DNA of 64,000 nucleotides from Melieria omissa (taxonomy: Eukaryota > Arthropoda > Insecta > Diptera > Ulidiidae): NCBI GenBank assembly GCA_963971225.1, contig OZ020270.1, forward strand, positions 68,330,932-68,394,931, read 5' to 3'. Shown here one piece after another: positions 2,689-45,100 of the stretch. Position numbers and translations under genes: made by a program. Under the pieces are notes generated by a model. The model was not told the DNA's origin, did not search any database, and was given only the letters and a program-made list of their open reading frames with translations. Each line of letters begins with the position of its first letter. The first letter of the stretch is position 1.

Positions 2689-5600
2689 GGTGGCTTCAGC
2701 TGAGCTCCTTCTCACACTAGAGGAGGGCAGCTACGACGTGGCCCTAATCCAGGAACCCTGGCTTTCCTCCGGAAATAAGGTTTCAGGGTAAGGGTCCACG
2801 AACTATAATCTTTTCCATGCAACAACGGTAGGTAAGATTCGATCTGCCATCCTTGTTAGGAAGGATATTAACGCATATCTTCTACCTAATTTCAGTTCTG
2901 ATGACCTGACGGTGGTCGCCATCGAAGGGGACGACAAGCTTAGACTTGTGGCCTCGTGCTATATGGCCCACGACGTCGAGGCACCCCCCACAGAACTACA
3001 GCACCTGACGGAAGAAGTCCTCAGACAAGGTTTCGACGCCGTGCTAGGTGCGGATGCCAATTCGCACCACCCTCAGTGGGGAAGCAAGGACACGAACGAA
3101 CGGGGTGAGTCCCTTTTTAACTTTATATTACAAAACAATGTAGATATAGCTAATAGAGGGAACATCCCAACTTTCAAGGGTCCGACGTCGGAAGACGTAT
3201 TGGACATTACTTTTTCTTACGGGGCAGATACCTGGATCTCGGATTGGAGGGTGCTGGAAAGACCCTCCTTCTCTGATCACAGCTACATACACTTTACGGT
3301 CAACTTTAAACCGATGCGTACAGAAAGGGTCTTCAGGAACCCCCGGAATACGGACTGGGATCTGTATGCAAATCGGTTAAAGACTCATCTGAGTAATGCC
3401 TCTCAGACCCTCTCCAGCTCGGACGTTGAGGCTAAGGCGAAACTCCTAACGTCAAAGATCCTACTTGCTTACCACGAATCCTGCCCGCCCTCAAGGCCGG
3501 TAGGACGAAAATCCTATCCGCCCTGGTGGAGCAAGGACATTGGTAGGCAAAGAAGAGAACTTAGAGAGTTTTTCAAACTGGCCAAACTTGCCGACTGTGC
3601 GGAGTGTTGGAGAGAGTACAAGACACTACTTCACTCCTACAAACAAGAAATACGGAGGGCCAAAAGAAGCTCCTGGCAGAATTTCTGTGGAAGTATGGAC
3701 AAGACCTCCGAGGCATCCAGACTTCGGAAGATACTCGCCAAATCCCCCCCTATACCATCACTCATCCGCAAAGAATCTGGAGAATGGACCAAGGATGGCA
3801 AGGAGACGCTTGAGGCACTTATGGAAGCCCACTTTCCTGGCTGTTCAGAGGTTCCCGACTCGGTCTCAACTGCACTCGGCACAGAGCAAGGGAATTGTGA
3901 GGGCCTAATCACCACATCCAGACTTCGATGGGCTTTGGGCTCTTTCGATCCCTTCAAATCCCCGGGTCCGGACGGCATTTTTCCCGCGCTTCTGCAAAAG
4001 GGAAGTGCTGTTCTGATACCGTGGCTCAAGGACGTTTTCAGGAGCTGTCTGAGACTGAACTATGTACCGATGGACTGGCGATTATCAAGGGTTGTATTTT
4101 TGCCGAAATCAAGTAAAAGCAGCCATTTGTATCCGAAGGACTATGGGCCCATCAGGCTCACCTCGTTTATACTGAAGACCTTTGAAAGACTGCTAGACTC
4201 GTTTATTAAGGAAAGGGTTCCACCTGGCCTGATATCAACGAACCAACACGCCTATATGAAAGGCAAGTCAACGGAGACAGCACTTCATCAGGTGGTTTTT
4301 CAGATAGAAAAAGCTTTTCACTACGGAGAATACGCGCTGGGAGCCTTCCTCGACATATCAGGGGCTTTCAACAATGTCTCCACAGAGGCATTGTTGGAAG
4401 GCCTTGCATCAATTGAGGTGCACCCACCCATACAGGACTGGATTGGTAATCTGTTGAATTGCCGTACAGTGGTAGCGGAGTGGGGCGCAACAACCATGAC
4501 GAGGAAGGCGAACAGGGGCACCCCCCAGGGGGGTGTGCTCTCTCCGTTACTATGGAATCTAGTCGTTAACAAGATCCTTTTAAAGTTGAGGGACGGGGGG
4601 CCAAGGCTAACCGCATATGCGGATGACCTCGCCGTTGTCGTCTCAGGCAGGTGTCTCACCTCAATGAGCCAAGTACTCGAGAGGACACTGAAAGTGATTA
4701 ACAACTGGGCAAAGACTGTGGGACTGGAAACAAACCCAGACAAGACGGACTTAGTTCTTTTTACAACAAAGTACAAGATCCCAACCTGGCTTCCTCCCAA
4801 ACTGAACAACACCACACTCACCCCCAAAACATCTACTAAGTACCTAGGAGTCATTTTGGACAGTAAACTGTCGTGGAAATTGAATGTGGAAGACAGGAAA
4901 AGGAAAGCCTTGAACGCCTTATACGCTTGCAGGAAAATGCTCGGTAAGACTTGGGGCTTATCCCCCCGTCTCACACATTGGATTTACACTGCAGTGATTA
5001 GACCCATTATGCTCTACGGGATCATAGTATGGTGGACTGCGGTGGATAAGAAGACCTATGCCAAAAGACTCGAGACTGTACAGAGAGCCGCTGGGTTGTG
5101 TATAACAGGCGCAATGCGCACCACTCCGACAGCGGCACTGGACAAAATCTTGGGATTTTATCCAATTGGTCTGACTGCGAAAAGCGTCGCTAAAAAGGCG
5201 GCGCTTAGACTTAAGGTAACTGGACAGCTCACGCTACGACATTACGGCCACAGCAGGTTACACGCAGGGGTGAGCGAAAGCTCAGACTACGCCGTACCTC
5301 AAGCCAATTTCAACTTCAAACCCCACGTGATCCTAGAACCGGAAGGGTGGCGACAGGGGCTCGAGCCCGGCCGTCAATCCTATAACCTGTTCACGGATGG
5401 ATCCAAGATGACAGAGGGAGTGGGATCTGCAGTTTTCTGTCCGGAACTTGACCTTCAACAGTCTTTCCGGCTCCCGGACTACTGCAGCATCTTCCAAGCA
5501 GAGGTACACGCTGCCACAAGAGCGGCGCAACTAGCAATGGGTCGCACCCCTCCAGACTCTCGAATAAACATCTATATCGACAGCCAAGCAGCCATAAAAG

Positions 5601-6229
5601 CAACAGCTGGGGTATTGTCAAACTCGATATGCGTACGGAACTGCAAAACCAAATTGGACGAACTCTGTCGCAACAGAGTAGTCACTATCTATTGGGTACC
5701 GGGTCACAAAGGAGTTGAGGGAAATGAGAAGGCTGATGCGCTCGCCAAAGCCGGGGCACGACTGCCTACGGTTAGCGAGCCAGACATCCATCCACCCCTC
5801 TCCACGCTCAAGACGGAAATAGAAGAGAATATGATTCGTGAAGCGGCGTCCATGTGGGAGAGATCTACATCTCACAGGACAGCAAAAATCATGCTTCGCG
5901 AACATAATGTCAACAACACAGAGTTTGTATTATCACTCCGAAGAGATGATTGCAAACTATTGACCGGGATACTCACGGGACACTGTCTCACACCGTCCCA
6001 CGCTGCCAAACTTGGCTTGGTACCAAGTGATGCATGCACAAGATGTGGTGAAGACAGTGCCAAGGGTACCCTGGAGCATTTGCTGTGCCACTGCCCTGCT
6101 CTCTACAGATCACGGGTCAGCTGCCTCGGATCCGCGTCGTTCCCTTCCTTGGAAAGAGTCGCGGAACAAAAAAGCAGCGACTTACTTAGATTTGGCAAAA
6201 CGTTTTTGACAAACTACATACAGGTCTGA
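2633..6229 (+). pseudogene. LINE ORF2: endonuclease-RT-RNase H, one in-frame stop
   Basis: The frame is open from 2633, overlapping ORF1 by about 55 bases in another frame with no ATG in the overlap, so translation would need frameshifting or re-initiation. It starts with the APE-type endonuclease (QEPW near 2755, GADANSHHPQWG near 3050, SDHS near 3275). RT follows (GTPQGG near 4520, YADD near 4620), then RNase H (TDGSK near 5395, DSQAA near 5580, PGHKG near 5700) and a C-terminal CCHC-like finger near 6030. One TAA at 2789-2791 splits the endonuclease; the frame continues intact from there to 6229. Apart from that stop the protein looks complete. Confidence 0.88.
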
Positions 6230-13760: not shown

Positions 13761-14114
13761 ATAATAATAAAAAATTAATAATTGATTGGCACGACAGCCC
13801 GCTTACGCGAGACTAAGGCCTAGCTTCCCGCAACCACCCGTGTTGTGCGTGTGAATTTTGTACGCGGGTGGAAGGGACCTACAGTTTTATGCCGGTTCCG
13901 AACGGCAGGTTGGGAGCTTTTTCATAGGCAATTTTTGCTCTCAGAGGTTTGCCATTTCCAGCTGAGAGGACAGCCACCGAAAGAGAAAACGAGTTTCCCG
14001 TTATTTTTTTTTTAGGTGTTACTACATGCAGAATTCGATCTTGCGTCGCTCTGCATGCGACTCGTTGGACCGCGCACTAACCAACTGAGCCACGGCGGCT
14101 GCCGTGCAGCGGCT
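13761..14114 (-). mobile_element. tRNA-derived SINE, copy A
   Basis: A roughly 350-bp element flanked by an 11-bp target duplication GGGCAGTGATA (13750-13760 and 14115-14125). Read on the minus strand its 5' end is tRNA-like, with a perfect A-box-type motif TGGCTCAGTTGG near 14085 and a B-box-like motif near 14035. It ends in an AT-rich tail of ATT/AAT repeats (13761-13785). The insertion point straddles the first five bases of the 3' LTR of the host element. Two more copies are at 31837-33820 (split) and 37444-37782. Confidence 0.85.
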
Positions 14115-30000: not shown

Positions 30001-30640
30001 GGCCGTGGTCCGTTCTGCCGGTCCGCTATGCCGTTGCTGTCGTCGTGGCACAGCTGCGGCCCGCTATGTCGTCGCTGCCGTAGACCGCTATGCTGTCGTC
30101 GTGGCACAGCTGCGGTCCGCTATGCTGTCGCTGCCGTGAACCGCTATGCTGTCGTCGTGGCACAGCTGCGGCCCGCTATGTCGTCGCTGCCGTAGACCGC
30201 TATGCTGTCGTCGTGGCACAGCTGCGGTCCGCTATGCTGTCGCTGCCGTGAACCGCTATGCTGTCGTCGTGGCACAGCTGCGGTCCGCTATGCTGTCGCT
30301 GCCGTGGACCGCTATGCTGTCGTCGTGGCACAGCTGCGGTCCGCTATGTCGTCGCTGCCGTAGACCGCTATGCTGTCGTCGTGGCACAGCTGCGGTCCGC
30401 TATGCTGTCGCTGCCGTGAACCGCTATGCTGTCGTCGTGGCACAGCTGCGGTCCGCTATGTCGTCGCTGCCGTAGACCGCTATGCTGTCGTCGTGGCACA
30501 GCTGCGGTCCGCTATGCTGTCGCTGCCGTGAACCGCTATGCTGTCGTCGTGGCACAGCTGCGGTCCGCTATGCTGTCGCTGCCGTAGACCGCTACGCTGT
30601 CGTCGTAGCACAGCTGCGGTCCGTTACGCCGTTGCATGCC
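30001..30640 (+). repeat. 56-bp GC-rich minisatellite with alternating variants
   Basis: About eleven tandem copies of a 56-bp unit of the form GCTATGCTGTCGTCGTGG...TGCCGTGAACC. Two variants (TGTCGTCGCTGCCGTAGACC and TGCTGTCGCTGCCGTGAACC) mostly alternate, giving a 112-bp higher-order period. Open frames across it follow from the repeat and are not evidence of a gene. It abuts the array LTR with no gap. Confidence 0.9.
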
Positions 30641-31670: not shown

Positions 31671-31870
31671 AGCCTTATTCTGGCAACTGTAACAATAGTC
31701 ACCTCGGTAAAAATTGCATACTTGGTAACAATTGTCACTTTTTTGTATTCTGGAGCAAATTCAAAATCTCAAAAGGTGACATTTGTTTCGAAATTGGTTA
31801 CCTCCGTAGGAGCAGGTGACAAGCATACAAAAATTAATAATTTAATAATAATTAATTGATTGGCACGACA

Positions 31871-31898
31871 CACAGTGTTCCGAAGTGGGACAAAAATA
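31871..31898 (+). promoter_or_regulatory. 12-RSS-like transposon end
   Basis: Heptamer CACAGTG at 31871-31877, 12-base spacer TTCCGAAGTGGG at 31878-31889, nonamer-like ACAAAAATA at 31890-31898. The heptamer equals the consensus of vertebrate V(D)J signals; the nonamer matches 7 of 9 bases of ACAAAAACC. Confidence 0.7.
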
Positions 31899-33473
31899 GG
31901 AAAATTGTATGTCACCGATTTCAAAAAAATTGGTGTCATTTGAAAGATAATACTTTCATTAAGTAAGATCTAAAATTATTTTATAATCGGGTGAATTTTG
32001 AGAAAGTTATAGCATTTACAAGTTGATCAAATTCTAGAAAAATTGTTTTATGATAAAATGCAGTTTTGAGCGTCAACAATTGAAAACGTAACCAAAACAC
32101 TATTTTCGCTTCAATCGGAGAAAATGTTACTGCTATGCACTTATAAGAGTCCTTAACATCATTTCAGGAGCTATTTTGAAAAAAAAGTTAAATAAAAACG
32201 GGGTTGTACGTTATTTAAACAACACATTTTTTTTACTAAAAGCTATAAAAACTATATATTTTTGTAGATCGCAAATATCGAATTGCGCATTATTACACCT
32301 ACTTTTTTACGTAATCCTATAGAATGGACTTTCGTCTTTTGGATCATTAAAAAAATGTCTGCGATTTCCTGCGATCTTGGAAAATAATAGGAATTTGTGT
32401 AAACTACTCTAACTAAAAAAATTAAATTTTTGTACCCTACGTTGAGGTGCCCATCGGTACATTCACTTTGGTACGGAGCTTGTAACGCCCAGAAAGTGAT
32501 GTAACTGGAAAGAAAAAGTAAAGTAGCACAGTCGCTATCAAAAATGGGCATGGTCCGCCCACTAAAGGCAGAGTTGCCATACGGAAGTCTTTCATAAAAT
32601 ATGAAAATGTCTATATTAACAAATCCAATGTCTCAATTTATTAATGTTCTATATAAAAATGGGTTTGGCTTACCCGTTTAACCCGTTTAGAGCCATATTA
32701 TCCTATTTTTCCCATTGCTAAAAAATTTGTTGCTAAAGTGAGATTTAATGCTCATATTTTTTGGAGAATATGGAAAAGTTGAGGAAGGCAGTTTTGTTGA
32801 AATTACTTTGCATTATTTACACTTGTTTACAATAAAGAAGAAAACTATGGGAGAAAACTATTTGTATAATAGTTTTATTTCAATTGAACTGTTTGTGTGG
32901 GATTAAAAACATCATATTTGATGATAGTGAAACTGAATAAACTGAACGGTTTGAAAAATGGCAGTTATTTTCTTTCATCCTCGACATTTTATCAAAGCAT
33001 TGCATCTTCATAGCTGTGTCATCTCTATGTGAAGATCTGGAAATAAAACCAAAAATGGTTTCTTTCAAGCAACTTCATCACCCTCTTTCCGCCCTTTGAA
33101 GGTCGAATTTTGAAAAACGCTGAAATACGTATTTAGTTATTTTTGTTTGAGTATATATATACAAAATTTTAAAACAATCCGACCAAAACACAATGTCCGT
33201 CTATAAAAGCTTCACCACCCCGTTTGCGGCCTTTCAAGGTCGAATTTTTTAAAATCGTTCCTTTTTAAAGGTTGACTTTTTAAAATACAACTATTGACCA
33301 AATTTCATCATTATAGCTCCAGCGGTTTGGGCTCGGTGGTGATAGCATACTTGGTTATATATATTCGATTTTTTTTAAAGCTATATATTTTTTGGAAAAC
33401 AAACATAATTTTTTAAGTCAGTAGCCCCAAATAATTCAGATTGCAAATTTTCAGCGAATTTAGAGCACTCCTT

Positions 33474-33512
33474 TTTTTTTGTCCCAATTTTGTATGGAGT
33501 CGAAACACTGTG
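33474..33512 (-). promoter_or_regulatory. 23-RSS-like transposon end
   Basis: On the minus strand: heptamer CACAGTG (33506-33512), 23-base spacer (33483-33505), nonamer-like ACAAAAAAA (33474-33482), matching 7 of 9 bases of ACAAAAACC. Both ends share GTT-CGA after the heptamer and TGGGACAAAAA around the nonamer; the spacers differ by an 11-base block. Confidence 0.7.
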
Positions 33513-34212
33513 CGACAGCCCGCTTACGCGAGACTAAGGCCTAGCTTCCCGCAGCCACCCGTGTTGTGCGTGTGAATTTGTACGCGGGTGGAAGGGACCT
33601 ACAGTTTTATGCCGGTTCCGAACGGCAGGTTGGGAGCTTTTTCATAGGCAATTTTTTACTCTCAGAGGTTTGCCATTTCCAGCTGAGAGGACATCCACCG
33701 AAAGAGAAAACGAGTTTCCCGTTATTTTTGTTAGGTGTTACTACATGCAGTATTCGAACTTGCGTCGCTCTGCATTCGACTTGTTGGACCGCGCACTAAC
33801 CAACTGAGCCACGGCGGCTGCAAAAATTATAAAATTAAAATTTCGTGTTCAAATGCGCCTTGAAAAACTGCAAAAAAAATGCTTCAGCTGCTCCTGCGTC
33901 GCCTCGCGTCGTGCGCTTAAACTTAGGAACTCTAAAAAACAAAAGAATATATACATACATTTGGAAGAAACTCCAAAAAAATACTTACTTCGCCAGATTT
34001 TGTGCGTTTTCCATTTTTCGTTTGTTTATTTTTTTAAACTTTGATAGAAAAAATACAAAAAACAGCTGTTTTGACAGTAAAAAAGCTTTCACCTCGAGTG
34101 GTGAATTGTTTGAACTTTCTTCTTGTCACCATTTTTCCAGAATACGGAAACAATCAAATTCAATTCAATTGTTACGGGGGTAACAATTGTTACGGTAGTG
34201 CCAGAATAGGGC

Positions 34213-37433: not shown

Positions 37434-37443
37434 TCCTTTTATA

Positions 37444-37782
37444 ATAATAATTAATTAAATAATTGATTGGCACGATAGCCCGCTTACGCGAGACTAAGGC
37501 CTAGCTTCCCGCAGCCACCCGTGTTGTGCGTGTGAATTTTGTACGCGGGTGGAAGGGACCTAAAGTTTTATGCCGGTTCCGAACGGCAGGTTGGGAGCTT
37601 TTTCATAGGCAATTTTTACTCTCAGAGGTTTGCCATTTCCAGCTGAGAGGACAGCCACCGAAAGAGAAAACGAGTTTCCCGTTATTTTTTTTAGGTGTTA
37701 CTACATGCAGTATTCGAACTTGCGTCGCTCTGCATTCGACTCGCTGGACCGCGCACTAACCAACTGAGCTACGGCGGCTGCC
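37444..37782 (-). mobile_element. tRNA-derived SINE, copy C
   Basis: Third copy of the SINE, 339 bp, with a 10-bp target duplication TCCTTTTATA (37434-37443 and 37783-37792). Tail of ATT/AAT repeats at the left, tRNA-like head at the right. The A-box reads TAGCTCAGTTGG here, the more canonical version, and the B-box region reads AAGTTCGAATAC. It is uninterrupted and so gives the full-length form of the family. Confidence 0.87.
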
Positions 37783-42105: not shown

Positions 42106-45100
42106 TTAACTGGCCATAACAACCCGTTATCGGGTTACGGCCTGCCGCAAAACTTCTCTCCAGGCGCCTCTGCTTTGCGCGCGCCTTCTCCAGTTAGTAA
42201 CACCAAGAGATGACAGGGCCTCTTCAACTTGGTCCTTCCACCGGAGACACGGCCTCCCTCTTCGCCGTCGACTTCCAACCATCGCATCAAACACCTTTTT
42301 CGCCGGAGCTTCGTCGTCCATGCGGCAGACATGACCGAGCCAGCGTAGCCGCTGGATGTTTATTCGCTGCGCTACGTCCATGTCCTTATACAGCTCATAC
42401 AGCTCGTTATTGGTTCGTATACGATAGTCGTCACCAACACGAACAGGGCCGAAGATTTTGCGAAGTACCTTCCTCTCGAACACTCCAAGGGCCGCTATGT
42501 CGTTTCGTGTCATTGTCCATGCTTCAGCGCCATAGAGGAGCACGGGCAAGATAAGCGTCCTATAGAGTGCAAGTTTTGTCGGTCGAGAGAGGTCTCTGCT
42601 TCTCAATTGCCTACCGAGACCGTAGTAGCACCCGTTGGCAAGAGTTATCCTTCGCTTTATCTCCAGGCTGACATCATTGCTGCAGTTGATGGCGGTGCCA
42701 AGGTAGACGAATTCCTTGACAACTTCAAAAGTATACCTGTCGGCCTCGACGTGAGACCCTAGCCGCTGCGAGTCCCTGCATGTAGACAGCATATACTTCG
42801 TCTTGCCCTCATTTACCACCAGACCCATTTTGGCAGATTCTCTTCCGATAGCCGCAAAGGCAGCGGTGACATCTCGCTTGTTACGTCCGATGACATCAAT
42901 GTCATCAGCGTAGGCAAGGAACTGGACACTTTTGTTGAAAATTGTGCCATTACGATGTACATCGGCCTTGCGCAGAACACTCTCCATGGTGAAGTTGAAG
43001 AGGTCGCAGGACAAAGGATCACCCTGTCTGAAACCTCGAACGGTATCAAAGGGGTCGGAGAGGTCACTTCCAACCTTGACGGAGCTGCGCGTATTGCTCA
43101 ACGTCGCTCTGCAAAGTCTCACGAGCTTTGCAGGGATACCAAGTTCAGACAATGCGGCATATAGGCGATCCATTATCGGGCTATCGAATGCTGCCTTGTA
43201 ATCGATGAAGAGATGGTGTGTATCGATTTGATTCTCATGGGTCTTCTCCAGGATTTGGCGTAGAGTGAATATCTGGTCGATGGTGGACTTACCAGGTCTA
43301 AAGCCGCACTGATAAGGTCCAATCAGCGCCTTGGCGAGTGGCTTTAATCTTTCACATAGTACGCTCGTCAGGACCTTGTATGCAATGGGAAGTAGGCTTA
43401 TACCCCTGTAGTTGGCGCATATTGTTGGGTCGCCTTTCTTCAGCACAGGACAAAGGGCACTGAGGTTCCAATCGTTGGGCATTCGTTCCTCCAGCCATAT
43501 TTTGCAAATGAGCTGATGCATGCACCCAATCAGCTCACCGCCGCCGGCCTTGAACAATTCAGCTGGTAGCCTATCCGGCCCTGCAGCTTTATTGTTCCTG
43601 AGTCGCTGGATAGCAACCCGGACCTCGTCATGGCTGGGCGGTGGCACATCCACACCGTCGTCGTCGATTGGTGCCATCTGGACATCTTCCTCGCCTGCGA
43701 GCAGCTTGGTGAAGTGCTCCTTCCACAACCTCAGCACACCCTGCGCATCCGTAACCAGATCCCCGTTTTCGTCTCTGCAAGAAGATGCCCCAGGCTTAAA
43801 TCCTTCCGTGAGACGCTTAACTTTTTGGAAGAATTTTCGGGCGTCATTCCTGCTCCTGCACTCCTCGATTTCCTCACGCTCGCGCCTTTCTTGCTCCCGT
43901 TTCTTGCGTCTAAAAAGGCACCTCTCTTTCTTCCTCTCCTCCCGGTATTTTTCTGTCACGGCTCGCGTGGCAGCCGACTGCAGGGTCTTCTTGTAGGCAG
44001 CATTCTTCGCTGCAGTGGCTGCGCGACACTCTTCATCGTACCATTGGTTTTTTGGTGGTGGGCGTCGAAAACCAAGGACATTTTCTGCGGCGGCGCGCAT
44101 AGAGTGGGATAAGTGAGCCCATAATCCGCCGATGTCATCAGGTGGAGAGGGGGAGCGACCGAGCTGGTTGGAGAGTTGAGCGGAGTAGGCTTCGGCTACC
44201 CCTTGTGATCGCAGCTTGCTGATGTCCAGCTTTCTTCGCAAACTAGGTTGTGCGGTCTTCGCTGCGCAAAGACGCATGCGCACCTTGGCTGCAACAAGGT
44301 AATGGTCCGAGTCGATGTTGGGACCTCGGAACGTGCGCACATCTAGAATGCTAGAAGCATGCCTTCCATCAATCACAATGTGATCAATCTGGTTGCGGGT
44401 TGATTGATCGGGGGATAACCAGGTCGCCTTGTGGATATCGAGGTGCTGGAATCTGGTGCTACTAACTACCATGTTTCGTGCCGCGGCGAAATCGATCAGC
44501 CTCAGACCGTTGTTTGTAGTGGTCGTATAGAGGCTGCACCGCCCGATAGTGGGACCAAATATACCTTCTCGCCCGACCTTTGCATTGAAGTCCCCGAGGA
44601 CGATTTTGACGTCATGGGCCGGGCACCCGTCGTAGACGTCCTCGAGCTTCGCATAGAAGGCATCCTTGGCCGCATCGTCCTTCTCTTCCGTCGGGGCGTG
44701 CGCGCAAATTAGGCTGATGCTAAAGTATTTAGCCTTGATGCGGATCGAAGCCAGTCGTTCGTTCACCGGATTGAACCGAGAGACGTGGTGGCGAAGTCTC
44801 TTACTGACCACAAATCCGCAGTCAAATTCGCGCTTCTCCGCATGGCAGCTGTACTAGATGTCGCAGTCTGCTCGCTTGGAGCAACCTTGTCGTGTCCATC
44901 GCATTTCCTGGATGGCGGTGATGTCAACCTTGCACTTTGTGAGGGCTTCCGCCAGTTGGATAGAGGCACCTTCCCTATAGAGGGTCCGGACATTCCAGGT
45001 GCATATCCTCAAATCGTGGTCCTTAAATCGTTTGCTGTGGTCGTCAACATTGTGGGCTCCTTCCGAGGCTTGTTTGCTGGCTTTCATTGGTATTTGATTT

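Follow-up and report, generated by a model that had tools for sequence, protein, structure and literature searches.

Transib transposons in which a heptamer and a nonamer-like block are separated by asymmetric spacers of 12 and 23 bp (+/-1) are described, in a passage of PMC8355894 that cites an earlier paper, as Transib5 of Drosophila melanogaster and as Transib2, TransibN1, N2 and N3 of Anopheles gambiae. According to a section of PMC8289069 most Transib families have symmetric ends, and one table of PMC5704228 contains CGNCG as the target entry for Transib. Here we describe a single copy of a non-autonomous, gene-less Transib-type element of 1,642 bp, located in a 64,000-nucleotide stretch of the Melieria omissa genome (contig OZ020270.1, positions 68,330,932 to 68,394,931; this whole stretch is called the window), together with its relatives in the same genome. 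We consider these copies, with a probability of about 0.9, to be a recent, multi-copy, non-autonomous Transib family with 12/23 ends, and the assignment to Transib is made because of the 5-bp CGNCG duplications, the CAC-heptamer ends and the Transib transposase genes of the same genome. Because such ends are reported in part of PMC8355894 for the Drosophila and Anopheles elements, 12/23 Transib ends are not new as such; what is new is an unusually clean 12/23 family with many copies. No prior naming of this family was found in titles or abstract openings of the literature, a search outside of which Repbase lies.

Ends, target site and copies of the element

The preliminary description, made from the letters of the window, had placed CACAGTG heptamers at both ends with spacers of 12 and 23 bp, and these coordinates proved exact (Table 1). 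Both of the A-rich nonamer-like blocks that it named are present as well, but the right block ACAAAAAAA is a private variant of the window copy, while the family carries ACAAAAATA at both ends. The proposal that the ends differ by an 11-base block in otherwise shared sequence holds, as their alignment needs just one gap, of 11 bp, over the conserved stretch, with TGGGACAAAAATAGAA inside common to both, and one more small gap beyond that stretch. The alignment indicates that the left and right ends are relatives which differ mainly by one 11-bp block, corresponding to one helical turn, and the asymmetry is likely to have arisen when one end of a formerly more symmetrical element gained or lost this turn.

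A search of the host genome (490 Mb in 164 contigs) with the element, in which 40 of 703 candidates were scored, gave at least 46 matches, so that all copy counts are lower bounds. In total 40 rows were compared, namely the window copy and 39 further copies with their flanks. A recognisable left end is present in 36 of these rows and missing from four, a recognisable right end is present in 38 and missing from two, and 34 rows show both. The layout is conserved in these copies: the distance between heptamer and ACAAAAATA is precisely 12 bp for 35 of the 36 left ends and precisely 23 bp for 36 of the 38 right ends, and CACAGTG itself is exact in 35 and 37 of them, respectively. The two right-end exceptions, the window copy and one copy with TCAAAAATA, nonetheless keep the distance of 23. 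Neither variable spacers nor unconserved nonamers, both of which had been named as arguments against the proposal, were seen in the copies examined, and the duplication length is 5 bp. In the searches made, no autonomous partner from an unrelated superfamily, the other such argument, came to light. An exact duplicated 5-mer is found in 32 of the 34 two-ended copies, the remaining two being off by one base, with the consensus CGNCG (C 23, G 30, any, C 32 and G 26 of 32). Thus the 12/23 layout is clean in dozens of copies, and with one end at 12 (+/-1) and the other at 23 (+/-1) the family falls within the 12/23 subgroup of Transibs.

Divergence from the majority sequence (1,645 bp) is 0.74-3.65% in 32 of the 34 copies, and 7.7 and 11.9% in two copies with inserts; the family therefore looks recent. 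Copies L013 and L015 have common flanks and are probably one insertion that was duplicated, which leaves at most 33 independent insertions among the 34. As expected from the preliminary description no transposase is encoded: stop-to-stop frames in the majority sequence reach 84 codons at most, hence the element is non-autonomous, and 120 listed Transib relatives gave no protein match inside the compared copies (L001-L047, L076, the majority sequence and the window). Their only matches lie in the flank of copy L002.

To count spacers irrespective of their length, the pattern CACAGTG-NTNCGA-(1 to 30 bases)-GGACAAAAA was used, which admits any spacer of 9-38 bp. It matches 404 times in the host genome, its reversed control 0 times, and among 100 listed of the 404 matches the spacer is 12 bp in 74, 23 bp in 25 and 16 bp in one. 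Outside the host one match was found in a viral collection and two in a prokaryote genome collection, with spacers of 27, 26 and 25. The commonest 12-spaced ends (52 of the 74 rows, 52 of the 100 listed ends) form a class with the sequence CACAGTG-CTTCGAGAGTGG-ACAAAAA. The 23-spaced form has 110 matches, and 100 listed ones were paired, nearest first and within less than 12 kb, with 91 listed 12-ends (0-1 mismatch); ends outside the listing could change the totals. This resulted in 60 convergent 12/23 pairs, 39 of them 1,427-1,663 bp long and others longer (3.19, 3.27, 4.84, 5.45 kb and above). Among the listed ends no convergent 12/12 pair occurs within 12 kb, and a single 23/23 pair merely bridges two facing elements.

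The 5-bp duplication CGACA had been deduced from an uninterrupted copy of a short interspersed element (SINE) elsewhere in the window. A single CGACA is indeed found there, but one base to the right of the position given, which was 13791-13795. A third copy of this SINE-like repeat lies at about 37441-37782, and judged by eye the repeat (13762-14102, 33513-33821, 37441-37782) contains a tRNA-like stretch. Its CGACA site has been struck repeatedly, by the window copy and L012 in one orientation and by L020 and L044 in the opposite one.

Table 1. Positions of the element, its ends and the interrupted repeat in the window, and of two further ends in the host genome.
Feature	Position	Strand	Remark
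Interrupted SINE-like repeat, left part	31835-31870	.	matches 13762-13796 at 86% over 36 bp
Target-site duplication, left copy CGACA, 5-bp	31866-31870	+	read directly
Non-autonomous Transib element	31871-33512	+	1,642 bp here, 1,645 bp in the family majority sequence
Left (12-type) end, heptamer CACAGTG	31871-31877	+	exact in 35/36 left ends of family
Left spacer, 12 bp, TTCCGAAGTGGG	31878-31889	+	direct reading and family copies
Left nonamer-like A-rich block ACAAAAATA	31890-31898	+	present in 35/36 left ends
Right nonamer-like A-rich block ACAAAAAAA	33474-33482	-	family has ACAAAAATA here (36/38 right ends)
Right spacer, 23 bp, TTTCGACTCCATACAAAATTGGG	33483-33505	-	direct reading and family copies
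Right (23-type) end, heptamer CACAGTG	33506-33512	-	exact in 37/38 right ends of family
Target-site duplication, right copy CGACA, 5-bp	33513-33517	+	read directly
Interrupted SINE-like repeat, right part	33513-33821	.	96-97% identity to 13792-14102 and 37473-37781
Empty target site CGACA, single, within uninterrupted SINE-like repeat copy (~13762-14102)	13792-13796	+	
CTTCGAGAGTGG-class ends, examples	C1:3421994, C1:6528487 (host genome)		

Besides the element the window harbours, at 6316-30000, an array of near-identical (about 91-99%) long terminal repeat (LTR) retrotransposon copies, mostly on the - strand and several of them truncated or nested, which from their frames we take to be gypsy-type. 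A tandem array with a period of ~56 bp (30035-30640) adjoins its end. Long reverse-transcriptase frames, presumably of the non-LTR type, lie at 2912-6229 and 42127-44811.

Transib transposases in the host genome

Searching the host genome with the RAG1 profile (PF12940) gave at least 40 Transib-type matches (68 of 166 candidates scored), some of them in uninterrupted frames of up to 689 codons, and further searches with transposase proteins were made with 66 of 3,222, 63 of 2,717 and 61 of 2,407 candidates scored. By similarity the genome encodes several Transib transposase lineages. Two of them, which we call families A and B, have ends other than those of the 12/23 element. The family A transposase matches the Helicoverpa zea transposase HzTransib (chain 6PQN) with E = 2.8e-98, and its closest named relative is from Eurosta solidaginis. 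Its residues D282, D390 and E594 are invariant in an alignment of 21 sequences and align to the DDE triad of HzTransib as given in a passage of PMC6941560, with a presumed numbering offset of 17. At 11 of 20 loci an A-type gene is enclosed by CACAGTG ends that are flanked by an exact 5-bp repeat, the whole spanning ~3.7 kb unless deleted. Family B was seen at one locus and has the heptamer CACTATG. Further divergent Transib lineages, with open frames of at least 700 codons, are found at C2:42236253-42238382, C1:88234044-88236167, C1:75711063-75713132 and C2:52209211-52211259. No Transib relatives were confirmed in viral contigs, and a search of plasmid DNA gave no match.

The family A transposase has ~180 residues ahead of the HzTransib-like part, with a GRP motif that is invariant in the alignments. 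We take RAG1 to have a counterpart of this motif. The solved HzTransib chains begin at about residue 21, which corresponds to residue 194 of our structure model, and thus are without the N-terminal region. The protein modelled is P0056 from a wasp rather than the host transposase, and the domain was modelled within the whole chain. In seven of 50 structural rows (e.g. 5zdz, 6dbl) the N-terminal part matches the nonamer-binding region of RAG1, judged by where the aligned stretch begins and ends in loose superpositions of whole chains with root-mean-square deviations of 7.5-9.1; in most of the remaining RAG1 rows the alignment begins no earlier than about model residue 194, and a sequence-profile comparison with PDB chains gave no match of the N-terminal part to RAG1. 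The model suggests a possible nonamer-binding-like N-terminal domain in these Transibs.

Two apparent partners of the 12/23 family turned out to be something else. The 4.36-kb pair at C1:80324833-80329187 (copy L076) is a further copy of the element that carries a nested piggyBac and an insert of 415 bp; the piggyBac-type transposase frame of 463 codons (PF13843) lies at 1496-2887 of L076 (C1:80324783-80329237). The other, a Transib fragment ~0.8 kb away from L002, belongs to family A and is a deleted copy of it.

Proposed mechanism and rival explanations

We propose that a Transib transposase moves this family by acting in trans on the bipartite ends of the element. The recognised end would consist of the CAC heptamer at the cut site and the A-rich block, a putative binding site, 12 bp (left) or 23 bp (right) further inside. 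One end of each kind would be paired, cutting would occur at the heptamers, and insertion into a 5-bp CGNCG site would give the duplication.

Several observations weigh against this picture or limit it. Among the listed ends 31 of the 91 12-ends and 40 of the 100 23-ends are unpaired, one 12/23 pair is divergent, and beside the CTTCGAGAGTGG-class ends no 23-end of the same pattern appears in the listed rows. The pairing counts alone do not show a failure of 12/12 pairs, because the copies of a family inherit their ends by common descent. The ends of families A and B are both spaced by 22 bp, counted by eye, from a GCAAAA-type block, and since these are 22/22 ends the 12/23 ends do not derive directly from either family. 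The one candidate for the autonomous partner is the transposase at C3:54556363-54558270, a 714-codon frame with an inward 23-end 1.6 kb downstream. Linked to the family by position, the locus C3:54556363-54559933 is only a lead; its relatives at C4:63014157 and C3:2937554 show no exact-pattern 23-end among the listed matches.

That the element belongs to Transib but that its spacing is merely inherited appears to us about an even bet. In this case the transposase would read the heptamer and the next bases (GTT-CGA), with no regard for the A-rich block or how far away it lies. This explanation fits the common descent of all copies of a family, the lack of an N-terminal region in the solved HzTransib chains, and the ends of HzTransib, which according to part of PMC8289069 are symmetric with little or no nonamer similarity. 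It accounts less well for the fact that both ends have TGGGACAAAAATAGAA in common but not the 11-bp block, that several end classes with different spacer letters still have exactly 12 or 23 bp, and that Transib A of the host has the additional ~180 N-terminal residues with the invariant GRP motif. A bolder reading is a RAG2-free insect Transib which obeys a true 12/23 rule, where a putative N-terminal nonamer-binding-like domain would read the A-rich block, only a 12-end and a 23-end would pair, and the 12-end would derive from a 22/23-type end by loss of one helical turn; we put this forward tentatively and regard it as rather doubtful.

A RAG-like (RAGL, ProtoRAG) transposon with RAG1L and RAG2L in place of a Transib is very improbable. 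Such transposons likewise have CAC heptamers and 5-bp target-site duplications according to an excerpt of PMC7204232, and a robber fly RAGL is mentioned in the consulted part of PMC8355894, where, however, RAGL ends are described as not obeying 12/23. Moreover, the RAG1 profile gave short C-terminal matches only, which are Transib-like (best 30.9 bits, model positions 524-636), in a search with 68 of 166 candidates scored that intron-split or diverged genes could escape. We see just as small a chance that another DDE superfamily (CACTA, Chapaev, hAT, piggyBac) is responsible and that its ends start with CAC by accident. CAC occurs in several superfamilies, and copy L076 contains a piggyBac gene, but this gene is located in an insert with 4 bp of overlapping element sequence at its borders, the structure expected of a nested insertion, and the duplications are 5 bp long and CGNCG-like in 32 of 34 copies. 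CACTA, Chapaev, hAT and piggyBac have target-site duplications with lengths and motifs of their own and are not known for the 5-bp CGNCG.

A chance resemblance in an A/T-rich end is the least credible of the alternatives. A-rich blocks are common in such DNA, and when 100,000 end pairs with given heptamers were simulated using the element's own subterminal dinucleotide make-up, 2% reached a nonamer match of at least 7/9 at some spacing of 5-44 on both ends. Spacers of 12 and 23, give or take one base, arose in only 3.4e-4 of the pairs, though, and exact 12 on one end with exact 23 on the other in 4e-5. Because this arrangement is so rare in the simulation and recurs in the family copies, chance accounts for it poorly; the spacing is also conserved over the end classes, and the gapped pattern is nearly absent from the viral and prokaryote collections.

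The origin of the 12/23 rule is an open question. The genome studied here contains Transibs that combine 22/22 ends with open transposase frames, and also a recent, multi-copy family with a layout near-identical to that of recombination signal sequences (RSSs). A single animal so provides natural substrates for asking whether a RAG2-free Transib transposase is sensitive to unequal spacers. If the 12/23 family does obey the rule, then the rule would need neither RAG2 nor the vertebrate immune system.

Comparison with known systems

The layout of the family resembles that of Transib5, Transib2 and N1-N3, compared by description and not by end sequence. While these elements are placed at 12 and 23 within one base, the copies counted here have spacers of exactly 12 and 23 bp, and the heptamer at either end is identical to the RSS consensus. 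HzTransib shares the 5-bp target-site duplication (a passage of PMC1852546) and, with host family A, the transposase fold (6PQN match). It differs in its symmetric ends, which have a clear heptamer and little or no nonamer similarity (same section of PMC8289069), and in its solved chain, which is without the N-terminal region that the host and P0056 Transibs have. The host Transibs A and B are similar to the 12/23 family in their CAC-heptamer ends and in 5-bp repeats that are mostly CGNCG-like; they encode a RAG1-like transposase. They have a 22-bp spacing (by-eye count) at both ends, however, and other spacer letters, and family B deviates in its heptamer, CACTATG. Compared with the 12RSS and 23RSS of V(D)J recombination, the heptamer CACAGTG is identical, the spacers are 12 and 23, and the nonamer agrees in 7 of 9 positions (ACAAAAATA versus ACAAAAACC, the consensus as given in part of PMC8289069). 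RAG2 is lacking in Transib according to a passage of PMC11844651; and whereas the RSSs of that system flank gene segments, the RSS-like ends described here bound a mobile element.
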